Shown here in pieces: positions 1,797 to 60,304 of a stretch of 64,000 nucleotides of DNA. Under the pieces are notes generated by a model. That model saw only the letters and a list, made by a program, of their open reading frames with translations, did not search any database and was not told the origin of the DNA. The first letter of the stretch is position 1, and the number at the start of each line of letters is the position of its first letter. Made by a program: the position numbers and the translations under genes. Source of the stretch: an uncultured Pseudomonadales bacterium (lineage in GTDB: Bacteria > Pseudomonadota > Gammaproteobacteria > Pseudomonadales > Pseudohongiellaceae); assembly GCA_943842505.1 (NCBI GenBank), contig CALTDI010000012.1:1-64000 (forward strand). Direction: 5' to 3'.

Positions 1797-2470
1797 ATGG
1801 AACTGCCAAAGAGCCAGGATCGCATCATGCAGCGCCTTAAAACGCGGGGGCCGCAGTCTGTAAAAATCCTTTCAAAACAATTAGATATGACCACGATGGG
1901 AGTGCGACAGCATCTCGCCGAGCTAGAATCTAAGGGTCTTGTGGGTCAAACTCAGGAAGAACGGCAAACTCGCGGGCGCCCTGTCCATCTGTGGAAACTG
2001 AGCGCTGCCGGCCATGGCCGCTTCCCCGATATGCACTCTCAAACCACCATCGAGCTTATCGATGTCATACGCTCCACCCTTGGCGAGCAGAGCCTGAACC
2101 AACTCATTGACCAGCGCAGCGAGGAAATAGAGGCCCAGTACCGTGAGCAACTAGGCGCCACCGAACCCGACCTTCAACTAGCAGATCGAGAGGCTCGCAC
2201 AATTGCGCAGCGACTGAAGGCTACATGGCCGAGGTGCGCCTATTACCCGATGGTTTTATGCTTATTGAGAATCACTGCCCTATCTGCACGGCTGCCACGA
2301 GCTGCCAGCAATTCTGCGAGACTGAGCTCGATCTGTTTCAGCGACTCCTCGAAGACAAGGCCGTCGTTACACGCACCGACCATCTGTTAGCTGGTGCGAG
2401 GCGCTGCGCCTATAAAATCAACGGCAATCGGCGCGTAAACGCGAAAATTTCACGGCTATTTCTGCTATAG
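1797..2470 (+). pseudogene. SufR/COG2345-type winged-helix Fe-S regulator, one frameshift
   Basis: The first about 140 residues carry a DeoR/ArsR-like winged helix (PKSQDRIMQRLKTRGP...TTMGVRQHLAELESKGLV). The reading frame then shifts, and the C-terminal cysteine region continues in another frame from about 2219 (NHCPICTAA...CQQFC...RRCAYKI). This split matches the two halves of SufR-like regulators, which sense an Fe-S cluster through such cysteines. One base appears to be missing near 2217-2219; restoring it gives about 224 residues. No suf genes are adjacent; the next gene encodes a DUF945 protein. It may be a true pseudogene or a sequence error. Confidence 0.75.
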
Positions 2471-2525
2471 TGTGCCGCTTCTCGCTCAGGCGGCTTTAAG
2501 CACGGCGCAAACAACTCAGGCACCT

Positions 2526-3848
2526 ATGAAATCACTCTCAAGCAAAGTTTTAGTCTGCGCCGTCGCATTGATCGCGCTGCTGCTTGCCGTGGCGCCAAGG
2601 GTTATAGGCGCAGGGATAGAGCAAGCGACTATAGATAGGCTCATGGAGCTCATTCCGCCGGAAGCCGAGAGCCAGCTAGAGATTCGTCGCAATGAAATCA
2701 ACAGCGGCTGGTTTCGAAGCTCGGCCAGCATCGAGCTAATCTTCACACCCATAGGCACAGACGCCATCGCGCTGGTGATGGACTTCGACATTGACCACGG
2801 ACCACTACTACAAACCCAGAATGGGCTTGGAATAGGGCTTGCCTATGCCAATATCAAACCCAGTATTCGCAACGATCTATTCGATATCGCTATTGCCGAG
2901 CTCTCGTTTCCCTTGCCGGATATAATGGCCGACCTGCTGGTGCGTTTCGATCAATCTGTGCAGCTCGACATGAATGTCAGCGAGGCCAACTATAGCGGCA
3001 CCCAGGGAGAAATGAATTTCAATGGACTGAACGCGAGCATCCATGTGGATTCTGACCAGTCGGCCCGCTTCGTCCTCAACATGGGAGAACTGGCAGTTAC
3101 CGAGAATGCAGCCAATTCCAATGTTGTTGTTGCCGGGCTGGCCATCACCAGCATAACCTCTCAACTGAACGACATGCTCGCCAATAGCAGCGCGACTCTC
3201 TCTATCCCATCACTAAGCAGCACGGCACCTGTTTCGTTTTCGATATCAGACATCGTTGTCGACTACGGGCTGAATGTCTCACCTGCGGATCCCCAGAGCA
3301 GTGAAATCTATCAGTCTCTAAGTATTGCAAACATCGAAGGTGGCCTGCCCGTTCGCTCACTCAGTTGGCGCAGCGAAATCAAACAGTTAAAAAATGAACT
3401 GCTGCAGGACTACTACCGCCTGCTCAACGAGCTACAGGCTGAATTCAATGCAGACCCCGAAGTCTATTCCGAGGAACTTCTATTCCTGGGGCAAGAATTG
3501 CTGCTCATCGTTCTGCAGAACCCGCTGGAGATAAATAATCTTATTGCAGCAAACGCCTTCGATGGCGATCACACTGCTGACCTGCGCATCGAGTGGTCAG
3601 GACTGGAAACATTGGCCAGTCTTTCGGAAGTCGATACCAATGCAGCGATAGCAGCCTTGGATATAACACTCGACATATCCCTTGATCTGAAAGCAATTCT
3701 GCGCAGCCCGCTAGCCGGACTGATTGACCCCTATGTTCAGCAGGGTTATCTGACAGTCTCAAACGGCAGAGTAATAATCGAAGCTAGCCTGCAGGACAGC
3801 ACGCTGATGGTAAATGGAGACCAGCTCCCCCTAGACCAGTTTTTATAA
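2526..3848 (+). CDS. DUF945 (YdgA-type) family protein
   Basis: About 440 residues from the ATG at 2526, which places a hydrophobic N-terminal signal or anchor (about residues 8-24) first; an in-frame GTG at 2472 would only add an unlikely polar leader. It resembles the DUF945/YdgA family of periplasm-facing proteins in an N-terminal anchor, a RRNEINSGWF-like segment, repeated beta-rich stretches and the closing motif VNGDQLPLDQFL. The function of the family is not established. It starts 55 bases after the regulator gene and may share its transcript. Confidence 0.65.
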   Translation: MKSLSSKVLVCAVALIALLLAVAPRVIGAGIEQATIDRLMELIPPEAESQLEIRRNEINSGWFRSSASIELIFTPIGTDAIALVMDFDIDHGPLLQTQNGLGIGLAYANIKPSIRNDLFDIAIAELSFPLPDIMADLLVRFDQSVQLDMNVSEANYSGTQGEMNFNGLNASIHVDSDQSARFVLNMGELAVTENAANSNVVVAGLAITSITSQLNDMLANSSATLSIPSLSSTAPVSFSISDIVVDYGLNVSPADPQSSEIYQSLSIANIEGGLPVRSLSWRSEIKQLKNELLQDYYRLLNELQAEFNADPEVYSEELLFLGQELLLIVLQNPLEINNLIAANAFDGDHTADLRIEWSGLETLASLSEVDTNAAIAALDITLDISLDLKAILRSPLAGLIDPYVQQGYLTVSNGRVIIEASLQDSTLMVNGDQLPLDQFL

Positions 3849-3911: not shown

Positions 3912-6056
3912 ATGTCAAAAAAATCCAACAAGAACTCTCAGCGCAGCGATCTATCACACTCCCCGCGGAAGCTTTTTTCCTATCCGAAATATTGGGCGGA
4001 GTGCTTCGATGCAGCCCCCTATCTACCTATGTCCAGAGAGGAAATGGATCAGTTGGGCTGGGATAGCTGCGACATAATTATCGTTACCGGTGATGCCTAC
4101 GTAGATCATCCGAGCTTTGGCATGGCGGTAATTGGAAGGTTGCTTGAGGCCCAGGGGTTTAGAGTCGGCATAATTTCTCAGCCCGCGTGGGATAGTGCAG
4201 ACCCGTTCAAGATACTCGGCAAGCCCAATCTATTTTTTGGCGTCACCGCCGGCAATATGGATTCACTGATTAATCGTTATACCGCCGACCTGCGCATGCG
4301 TAGTGATGACGCCTATACACCCAACGGTGACGCGGGCAGGCGCCCTGACAGATCGGTCATTGTCTACAGTCAGCGTTGCCGAGAGGCTTATTATGACACA
4401 CCGATAGTCATTGGCGGCATCGAGGCCAGTCTCCGGCGCATCGCGCAGTACGACTACTGGAGCGACAGCGTGAGACGCTCCGTATTGATCGACTCCAATG
4501 CGGATATCTTATTGTACGGAAACGCAGAGCGAGCCCTCGTTGAGGTCGCGCATCAACTTGCCGCCGGCAGGACTACCGACGAAATGGAATATCTGCGCGG
4601 CACTGCCCGAATTAGAGCAGAAGTACCCCAAGGCTGGACCGAGATAGATTCCACCCGTATCGACTGGCCGTCGAAGATTGACGACATCCCCAATCCTTAT
4701 GATTTCCACGACAAGAAAACCGATTCGAAACCTAAAGCCGAATCTCTCGATGGCTCCAATGGCAGTGACGACACGGGCAAGCAGGCGATTCGAATCATTC
4801 CTCTACCCTTGCAGCGCAAAGAGGAATTCGATTCCGAGACCGCTTATATTCGCCTGCCCTCTTTCAGTAAAGTGACAAATGACCCGGCTTTGTATGCCCA
4901 TGCATCTCGCGTATTGCATCAGGAAGCCAATCCCTACAATGCCAAGCCGCTGATACAGAAGCATGGCACACAGGAAGTCTGGGTAAACACGCCTCCGATA
5001 CCGTTGGAAACCGACGAGATGGACTGGATCTTCGACCTGCCCTATCAGAGACGGCCACATCCATCCTATGGTGATGCGCGAATCCCTGCCTACGACATGA
5101 TCAAGACATCCGTAAACATAATGCGCGGATGTTTCGGCGGCTGTACCTTCTGTTCTATTACTGAACACGAGGGCCGCATCATTCAGAGTCGATCGGAAGA
5201 TTCGATACTGCGTGAGATCGAGAAGATTCGAGATCAGGTTCCTGGCTTCACTGGCACGATTTCAGATCTTGGTGGGCCGACAGCTAATATGTATAAGCTG
5301 AACTGCAAGTCACCGAAGATTCAGAAAACCTGCAAACGGCTCTCCTGTGTCTACCCCAATATCTGCAAACACCTGAACACCGATCATAGCCCTACCACCC
5401 AACTATATAGAAAAGCGAGAGCGATCCCTGGCGTAAAACGCGTAGCGATTGCATCAGGACTGCGCTATGACCTGGCCCTGAAAGACCCCGAGTATGTCGA
5501 AGAACTGGTTACCCATCATGTAGGTGGCTACCTAAAGATCGCCCCGGAACATAGTGAAGACAAGACCCTTTCCAAGATGATGAAGCCGGGCATCTCAGCC
5601 TATGACGAATTCAAAATTCTATTTGACAAGTTTTCGAAGAAGGCTGGCAAGGAACAGTATCTAATCCCTTACTTCATTGCCGCCCATCCGGGAAGCGATG
5701 CCGAGGACATGCTGAATCTCAGCATGTGGCTTAAGGAAAGAAATTTTAAACCCGATCAGGTGCAGACTTTCTACCCTTCGCCGATGGCACTCGCCACCGC
5801 CATGTACTACTCCGAACGCAATCCCTTGGAGAAAGTGCGTTACAAGAGCGAGAAGCTTAGCATCTGCAAAGATATCGATCAGCGTCGACTACAGAAAGCT
5901 TTCCTGCGTTACCACGACGAGAAGAATTGGCCGATGCTTAGAGAGGCCTTACATGAAATGGGCAGGGCCGACCTGATAGGCGACGGCGACAAGTTCCTGA
6001 TCCCGAAAGCGAAGCCCAGCAATAGGCGGCAGAGACAGCATCCACGCCGACGCTAA
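3912..6056 (+). CDS. ygiQ: YgiQ-family radical SAM protein
   Basis: A 714-residue radical SAM enzyme of the YgiQ group (UPF0313). The N-terminal UPF0313 region includes [13 protein letters not shown] and [18 protein letters not shown]. It is followed by the SAM-core CxxxCxxC motif (C407, C411, C414, in [12 protein letters not shown]), which binds the 4Fe-4S cluster that cleaves S-adenosylmethionine. Further motifs are GGPTANMY, a short Cys cluster (about residues 465-485) and KIAPEHSE. The basic C-terminal tail ([10 protein letters not shown]) is typical. The substrate is unknown. It is a single gene convergent with the downstream ATPase gene. Confidence 0.93.
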
Positions 6057-52921: not shown

Positions 52922-53084
52922 TGTGCCTGCCTCTGTCTTGTTCTTTCGGCGTTGTTCAGCCAAGCATCTTCTGTCTGCTGGCTAAAGTTTTTTATCGTGG
53001 ACTCTAGACTATCATGGCCACAGTTGACTTCACTATGCCAAGCGCGTTTCATGGCGCTAGCGATTCTGAAAAAGAGGAGTAACC

Positions 53085-53963
53085 ATGAACAACAACGATG
53101 TGCCCTACATGGAGAGAACGCGAAACTTCTACCGCGCGCAGGGCTATACCAATGACTACCAGTGGGCACAGCATGACGACGTACCGTTTTGTGCCCCCAC
53201 AAAACCTCTAAGCGAATGCAAGGTAGCCGTAGTCACTACCGCCATGCCAGACACTGAGGCCGGACGCGCTAATCGTCAGGTCTACTCCTGTTCCAGCCAG
53301 CCAATTCCGAGCGCGATGTACACCGCGGAACTCTCCTGGCACAAGACCATGACACACACAGACGATGTTGCCTCATTCCTGCCCTTGCTGCAGCTAGGTC
53401 GCTGCGCCGAGGAAGGCTTGATTGCGCAACTCGCCGAGCATTACCACTCAATACCAACAGAATACAGTCAACGTAATACCCTGGAGAAGGATGCGCCGGA
53501 GATTCTAGCTCGCTGTCGTCAGGACAAGGTTGACGCAGTAGTGCTAGTCCCGTTGTGACCCGTCTGCCATCAGACCGTGTGTCTGTTAGCACGCTTCCTC
53601 GAAAGCAATGGTATTTTAACTGTGGTCATTGGGTCGGCGATGGATATCGTCGAACACTGCGGCGCGCCTCGATACCTGCACAATGACTTTCCTCTGGGCA
53701 ATCCCTGCGGCGTTCCCTTTGACGCACAGATGCAACTGGAGATAATGCGCCTCGGCTTACAGCTATTCGAAAAAGCAGACAAGGGAGGCAGCATCGAACG
53801 CAGCCCCTTCCACTGGAAAGATGACCTCTGGCGAGCAGACTATGCCGCGGTCGATGACAGTAACGCTGAAGAACTACGACTGCGGGGAGAACGACGACGC
53901 CAGCAGCAGATTGACGACAAGGCGGCCGGCAACTCGCGCGCCTCTATGATTTCAGATGCATAA
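53085..53963 (+). CDS. GrdB-like selenoprotein (glycine/betaine/sarcosine reductase B family), in-frame UGA
   Basis: 292 codons with a GAGGAG site six bases before ATG 53085. TGA at 53556-53558 (residue 158) is in frame, and the protein continues without any shift to 53963. The motif reads VVLVPL-U-PVCHQTVC, where homologues have Cys-P-V-C-H-Q-T, so UGA sits at the redox-active site (U158, C161). After it, DIVEHCGAPRYL and FPLGNPCGVPFD match the family. Selenocysteine needs SelA, SelB, SelD and tRNA-Sec elsewhere in the genome. A SECIS-like hairpin follows the UGA. Family members of this non-clostridial type have no proven reaction. A Cys-to-stop sequence error is the alternative. Confidence 0.82.
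53566..53590 (+). promoter_or_regulatory. Candidate bacterial SECIS element
   Basis: CAGAC (53571-53575) pairs with GTCTG (53581-53585) around loop CGTGT, extended below by A-T, C-G and G-C pairs interrupted by two mismatches. The loop has G at its second position, about 19 bases after the UGA, within the spacing known for bacterial SECIS. An alternative 5-bp stem (53562-53566 with 53571-53575) is possible. Confidence 0.55.
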
Positions 53964-55180: not shown

Positions 55181-55220
55181 CAGTAGCAGTAGCAGTAGCA
55201 GTAGCAGTAGCAGTAGCAGT
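55181..55220. repeat. Hexanucleotide repeat (CAGTAG) x 6.7
   Basis: Six full CAGTAG units plus CAGT, flanked on both sides by AACAATAA-type sequence, 74 bases before the receptor start and 20 before the leader frame. Such an array can change copy number by slipped pairing and so alter spacing in the upstream region. Confidence 0.9.
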
Positions 55221-55240
55221 AACAATAATAGGCAAATTCC

Positions 55241-59842: not shown

Positions 59843-60304
59843 TTTTCTGCTCCTTAAAATCTCAAGCGTCGTTTATACAGCAGCTTTTTGTGGGGTGCAA
59901 TTTGAATGATTCCGGTGCTTTAGGGAAATTCCAGGCTCATTTAGCTGCCAACAGATTTAGCTGCGACAAGTATTGACTGCAAGCCCGACATTCCTGCTAA
60001 TTTATATCTAATACTCAATAGCTTACAGAGCTAAGGGCCCATCTCAACAAATCGCGACCGGCTTCATTGCATCATGTTAATGTACTAGCAAAGTAAGACA
60101 CACCCTCAGTCTCAGTGTTTTAGGGTGCCACATTGATAAACGCAAAGAGAGACGACGCATCTTGCACAAGCTGGACTCTGAGGGAGATAGCTCTTATTCT
60201 TCCCCCCCAACTTCACGCATCCAATAGAGTTTGAACGGGCTTGGATTAAAACTGTATTACCCAGAAGCGAAGCGTTTAGCGCTTCCTCAAACAGGAATAG
60301 TAAA
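59843..60304. other. Intergenic region between divergent metY and NHL-repeat genes
   Basis: It holds the metY leader on the minus strand, where GCAGCTAAAT occurs twice (plus-strand 59939-59948 and 59955-59964). A plus-strand promoter region for the NHL gene is expected but not resolved. No coding frame is supported. Confidence 0.4.

Follow-up and report, generated by a model that had tools for sequence, protein, structure and literature searches.

Results

The PrdB-like gene and its in-frame TGA codon

The window, that is, the whole stretch of 64,000 nucleotides analyzed here, contained a gene for a PrdB-like selenoprotein, located on contig C12 of an assembly of 3.25 Mb with 26 contigs and a completeness of 94.09%. 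The features recognized at the locus were as follows.

53085 to 53963, plus strand: PrdB-like selenoprotein gene, 292 amino acids with TGA read as selenocysteine (Sec), based on the reading frame and on homologues
53074 to 53079, plus strand: probable ribosome-binding site, GAGGAG, preceding the ATG, as read from the sequence
53556 to 53558, plus strand: in-frame TGA, the Sec codon (residue 158) opening the U-P-V-C motif, from the alignment of homologues
53565 to 53567, plus strand: TGC codon of Cys161, the putative second redox residue of UxxC, invariant in alignment A1
53571 to 53585, plus strand: bacterial SECIS hairpin with stem CAGAC/GTCTG and loop CGTGT, from covariation and the contrast with Cys rows; the fold of the lone RNA counts against it

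The gene formed a single frame of 292 codons whose sole interruption was the TGA at 53556–53558. The initial annotation had placed both halves in one frame, split only by this codon, and had assigned the TGA to the first position of a U-P-V-C-H-Q-T motif; both descriptions were exact. Residues 158, 159, 161, and 163 were invariant in the 20 rows of alignment A1. Values of pN/pS with respect to seven relatives were similar before (0.09–0.21) and after the TGA (0.05–0.25), so that translation evidently continues past the TGA.

Homologues with Sec or Cys

A protein search of the order yielded 17 matches in 11 of 194 genomes. All except one displayed one in-frame TGA, and the remaining match (L030) covered only residues 5–122 of the query, at a contig end. 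Ten further loci were obtained by scanning GTDB genomes, and the TGA appeared at the same site in all of them. One of these loci (L037), with a gene 97% identical to that of the window and coming from another assembly, kept the TGA, which argues against a sequencing error. When a 20-row alignment was searched against the phylum, 18 matches were found in 16 of 398 genomes, of which three had TGA (the gene of the window itself and a pair from genome G342); the other 15, free of any stop, carried TGC or TGT at the Sec site. Cys was also present there in two plasmid-borne homologues from Alphaproteobacteria. The frames of the Cys homologues were open, with 312–420 codons between stops.

Altogether, 28 Sec rows (window included; L030 and the further copies of the same gene, L020, L047, and L078, were left out) presented the UGA at one U-P-x-C position, and 17 Cys rows presented TGC or TGT. 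The alignment to Cys homologues suggested in the initial annotation thus revealed the conserved in-frame UGA with Cys in homologues by which bacterial selenoproteins are recognized; the assertion that homologues have Cys held for these 17 rows, whereas the nearest relatives have Sec.

Four PrdB-like genes (L027, L032, L034, and L036), all with a single in-frame TGA, were found in genome G039 and fell on separate branches of the tree; in L034 and L036 the motifs were U-P-N-C/U-P-I-C and the open frames comprised 412 and 428 codons. At L102 4219–6281 (genome G261), a Cys homologue was located just before UPF0261 and PEP_hydrolase-like (PF09370) genes on the same strand, in an apparent operon.

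SECIS hairpin

The hairpin started 12 bases past the UGA, with the 5-bp stem formed by 53571–53575 and 53581–53585 and the loop CGTGT at 53576–53580 bearing G in second position, in full agreement with its first description. The complete stem was formed in 26 of the 28 Sec rows vs. none of the 17 Cys rows (among distinct Sec sequences, in 10 of 11), and the GU apex in all 28 Sec rows vs. two Cys rows; from random synonymous codons a full stem would be expected in 7–10% of the distinct Sec sequences (10–12.5% for the peptide of the window). Covariation was tested against 500 shuffles on an ungapped alignment of 19 of 26 Sec rows (17 distinct), where 98.8% of the stem cells paired and two-sided changes occurred at four of the five pairs. 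The covariation score and the paired share were reached by no shuffle, the count of two-sided pairs by four, and the count of pair types by 30, whereas versions of the stem slid from its position paired in 8–47% only. A synonymous compensatory change was observed in L031, L046, and L080, where Gln CAA and Leu TTG pair instead of CAG and CTG.

For a lone 45-nt RNA of the window, the best fold was a different hairpin, GUCUG/CAGAC, competing with the SECIS stem, with a z of −1.85 and equal stability in 10 of 200 shuffles. Judged from the sequences as a whole, the hairpin is a real bacterial SECIS, a feature by which bacterial selenoproteins are recognized, with the fold of the lone RNA counting against it. 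One Cys row (L079, genome G413), placed beside Sec row L080 in the tree (98/75), kept four of the five SECIS pairs and the GU apex, and apparently represents a recent Sec-to-Cys conversion.

Selenocysteine machinery

The search for Sec machinery proposed in the initial annotation recovered the proteins but no tRNA-Sec, so that a lack of Sec machinery, named there as a ground for refutation, does not apply. Genes selA, selB, and selD were found in the same genome (570.6, 394.3, and 282.4 bits, respectively), each above its curated cut-off. No tRNA-Sec over the gathering score was obtained from this 94%-complete assembly in a covariance search of the whole genome that scored 150 of 243 first-look candidates. 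The best of ten sub-threshold matches (45.7 bits) corresponded to a tRNA-Leu, and the eight that became loci were other tRNAs. ARAGORN detected no tRNA-Sec on contig C1 (run in pieces), positions 60001–120000 of C12, or 20 kb of C10, and Rfam models at gathering score matched a single ordinary tRNA in the window. In congener G210 the tRNA-Sec follows a gene whose homologue sits near the end of C1 here, and the corresponding place was without tRNA-Sec.

In related genomes, a tRNA-Sec over the gathering score was present in 18 of 20 gene-bearing genomes (the exceptions being the genome of the window, counted among the 20, and G593) and in 19 of 24 congeners searched. ARAGORN assigned a tRNA-Sec with anticodon tca to all eight congener loci given to it. 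The genome of the 97%-identical relative has a tRNA-Sec with a DUF547 gene alongside; the latter gene was not found in the genome of the window by a search run without a positive control. We infer that the missing tRNA-Sec reflects a gap of the assembly or of the search.

In G590, which carries the 97%-identical gene, the tRNA-Sec adjoins a gene for a tyrosine integrase (Phage_integrase, Arm-DNA-bind_3; L105, G590:C75:1–9000, 2316–3554 and 3712–3803), and it may serve there as an island insertion site.

Family placement and predicted structure

The protein matched PF07355 (GRDB) with 27.2 bits, above the gathering cut-off of 22. Its best NCBIfam match was PrdB (TIGR04483; 83.9 bits, E 1.1e-23), the cut-off of 300 not being reached, and TIGR04483 also matched all 20 members of A1 (best E 4.2e-48). 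Scores were considerably lower with the models of GrdB, GrdF, and GrdH (21–38 bits vs. cut-offs of 602–800; 21.3 vs. 602.2 for GrdB TIGR01917), and the broad model TIGR01918 gave 32.8 vs. 65.45. The earlier designation as GrdB-like was therefore adequate at the level of the superfamily, whereas the best named match is PrdB. GrdB proper was rejected on the score and on the lack of a GrdE-type subunit in the 27 gene-bearing genomes tested. With GrdB, GrdF, and GrdH of glycine, sarcosine, and betaine reductase the protein has PF07355 in common, but it matches only the C-terminal half of these models (431–435 positions).

The PrdB of Firmicute D-proline reductase belongs to the same superfamily and shares the UxxCH core and the UGA at the same site. 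In contrast, true PrdB has the motif A-G-U-G-T-C-H-R and a length of 237–241 amino acids (two proteins), vs. P-L-U-P-V-C-H-Q in the subfamily of the window and 292 amino acids in its protein, which moreover remains below the TIGR04483 cut-off, falls in a separate clade, and lacks a PF09338 partner. In a tree of 50 rows, rooted at midpoint and accompanied by a tool warning of long branches, five Firmicute PrdB rows formed a distinct clade (100/99), and the window fell in a clade of 19 rows, 18 with Sec and one with Cys (99/98); the labels Sec, Cys, and PrdB need five changes on this tree. RefSeq proteins named "glycine/sarcosine/betaine reductase selenoprotein B family protein" from Roseomonas and Haematobacter plasmids aligned with 86% of the query at about 43% identity, with Cys instead of Sec at the same site and without formation of the SECIS stem.

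A structure model built from an 11-row alignment, with Sec entered as Cys, reached a pLDDT of 71.7 (moderate confidence) and a pTM of 0.76, and residue 158 was predicted to lie between a strand (151–155) and a helix (159–174). Searching solved structures by sequence returned two ribosomal entries (E 0.68 and 0.91) that were taken as chance matches, searching them with the alignment as query returned none, and a fold search with the model gave no match at E ≤ 0.001.

Partner subunit and gene neighborhood

According to the available part of PMC10298544, D-proline reductase binds its substrate via a pyruvoyl group on another protein. PrdA of two species matched PF09338 (PrdA/GrdE), and this family was present in all five records with annotated or matching PrdB that served as positive controls, whereas it appeared in none of 27 gene-bearing genomes tested (own genome included; 21 with Sec forms and six with Cys forms only) of the about 36 known here. 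These results make D-proline or glycine reduction unlikely. TIGR04480, searched without a positive control, had no match in the genome of the window. In a plasmid record of Peptoclostridium acidaminophilum (L108), a PF09338 match was located just before prdB at 4923 (record 258999–260039), with no gene entered at this place in the table of the record; this unlisted gene is probably prdA.

No neighbor family occurred in more than 11 of the 26 loci compared. An alpha/beta hydrolase was found in 11 loci, a CMD-family protein in nine, and an amidohydrolase-like cluster in eight, all of them confined to close kin of the window, while one unnamed cluster appeared in five of the more remote loci, at any place within the 14–19 kb that they span. 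The immediate neighbors of distant homologues differed, except between near relatives such as G105 and G157. Deriving a function from the neighbors was rejected since no neighbor family was widely conserved across the 26 loci. The lack of PF09338 together with that of a widely conserved neighbor points to a single-subunit enzyme.

The window contains a gene for an alpha/beta hydrolase (Abhydrolase_1), divergent from the PrdB-like gene and upstream of it. A short run of CAGTAG-type repeats (55181–55221) was observed between a DUF2007 gene and the large ORF that comes next. In one congener (G081; L059 7567–9003), a single case, a gene for a pyridine nucleotide-disulphide oxidoreductase (NAD(P)) was found divergently beside the PrdB-like gene, and its product is a possible electron donor.

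Discussion

Conservation of the TGA, covariation of the hairpin, Cys homologues, selection, and the presence of selA, selB, and selD support the selenoprotein with a bacterial SECIS that had been proposed initially, and we regard this part, taken alone, as virtually beyond doubt. As to function, the protein is likely a stand-alone PrdB-like selenoprotein acting as a dithiol-dependent reductase of a substrate other than proline, in which case the name proline reductase would reflect similarity alone. The initial wording, "redox selenoenzyme of unknown chemistry," fits with the lack of a PF09338 subunit in this genome and in the 26 other gene-bearing genomes.

As supported by the sequences, UGA codon 158 is read as Sec via the conserved SECIS and SelA, SelB, and SelD, and selection acts on the protein over its full length. 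Sec158 and Cys161 would constitute a redox centre located where a strand of an alpha/beta protein ends; after attack of the selenolate on a small electrophilic substrate, Cys161 would resolve the product by forming a selenenylsulfide, and the centre would be restored by a dithiol of the cell, linked to thioredoxin, lipoyl groups, or glutathione. Since no pyruvoyl-type subunit of the PF09338 family is encoded, the substrate would not be held as a Schiff base, unlike in D-proline reductase. We infer the dithiol dependence and the selenenylsulfide intermediate from the invariant UxxC, the CxxC of 17 homologues, and mechanisms described in the part of PMC10298544 available.

A special case of this dithiol-dependent reductase would be an enzyme that cleaves an activated C–X bond, for instance C–halogen, by selenolate attack. 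The precedent is FarB, a homologue of GrdB whose Sec is proposed, in the accessible portion of PMC10838667, to attack the C–F bond of fluoroacetate, where no Schiff base can form, and the Abhydrolase_1 gene beside the gene of the window would be in line with such a role. However, the same portion describes FarB as working with the GrdE homologue FarE, whose family was not found here, and the hydrolase is confined to close relatives of the window (11 of the 26 loci compared), so that we consider this special case rather unlikely.

The protein could otherwise be a genuine subunit of D-proline (or glycine/betaine) reductase whose pyruvoyl partner is absent from the assemblies or is an unrecognized protein. 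PrdB as best named match, the TIGR04483 matches throughout A1, and the UxxCH core common to true PrdB would agree with this, but the score of 83.9 bits vs. a cut-off of 300, the distribution of PF09338 (five of five PrdB records vs. none of 27 gene-bearing genomes), the separate clade of the five PrdB rows, and the different motif make it very improbable. That the TGA is a real stop, leaving a pseudogene or a 157-amino-acid protein plus a second ORF from GTG 53577, is scarcely credible, since the undetected tRNA-Sec and the mechanical listing of that ORF are opposed by a TGA conserved across genera, Cys homologues with open frames, covariation in the SECIS, purifying selection downstream of the TGA, and selA, selB, and selD; pseudogene or sequencing error was rejected on the basis of the conserved TGA, Cys homologues, SECIS, and selection.

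The stand-alone reductase reading bears on marine surveys. Sec-containing "PrdB" with UxxC is already known from the surveys of 2005 and 2008, and the point of interest is the missing partner. In the consulted parts of these reports, "proline reductase" PrdB with Sec ranked third in abundance among the known families of the Sargasso Sea (PMC1088965, 2005), where it had 42 genes and was assigned D-proline cleavage, and PrdB of GOS comprised 235 Sec and 110 Cys sequences with pfam07355 and UxxC (PMC2398784, 2008). The gene of the window falls within the survey definition (pfam07355 plus UxxC with Sec), and the survey proteins resemble it in their PrdB label, Sec in UxxC, and Cys homologues; matched by description, they likely belong to the same subfamily. 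Among the matches listed in a literature search of open-licence papers (titles and starts of abstracts), none assigned a function to PrdB-like proteins that stand alone in Proteobacteria. Since the 27 gene-bearing genomes tested lack a PrdA/GrdE-type subunit, D-proline cleavage is doubtful for the PrdB-like branch, whose true reaction probably differs from that of proline reductase.

In the ocean surveys, PrdB was one of the selenoprotein families of highest abundance (PMC1088965 and PMC2398784, as far as the parts consulted extend). For the gene described here, the name and the content of its genomes disagree. The question can be approached with a single-gene enzyme and natural Cys variants. 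We consider it probable that these proteins make up a branch of the PrdB/GrdB superfamily that has a single subunit and no pyruvoyl group, is distributed over several Pseudomonadota lineages with repeated Sec–Cys exchange, and catalyzes a reaction different from the reductive cleavage of amino acids; if this is true, many of the abundant "proline reductase" selenoproteins of the ocean would be misnamed.
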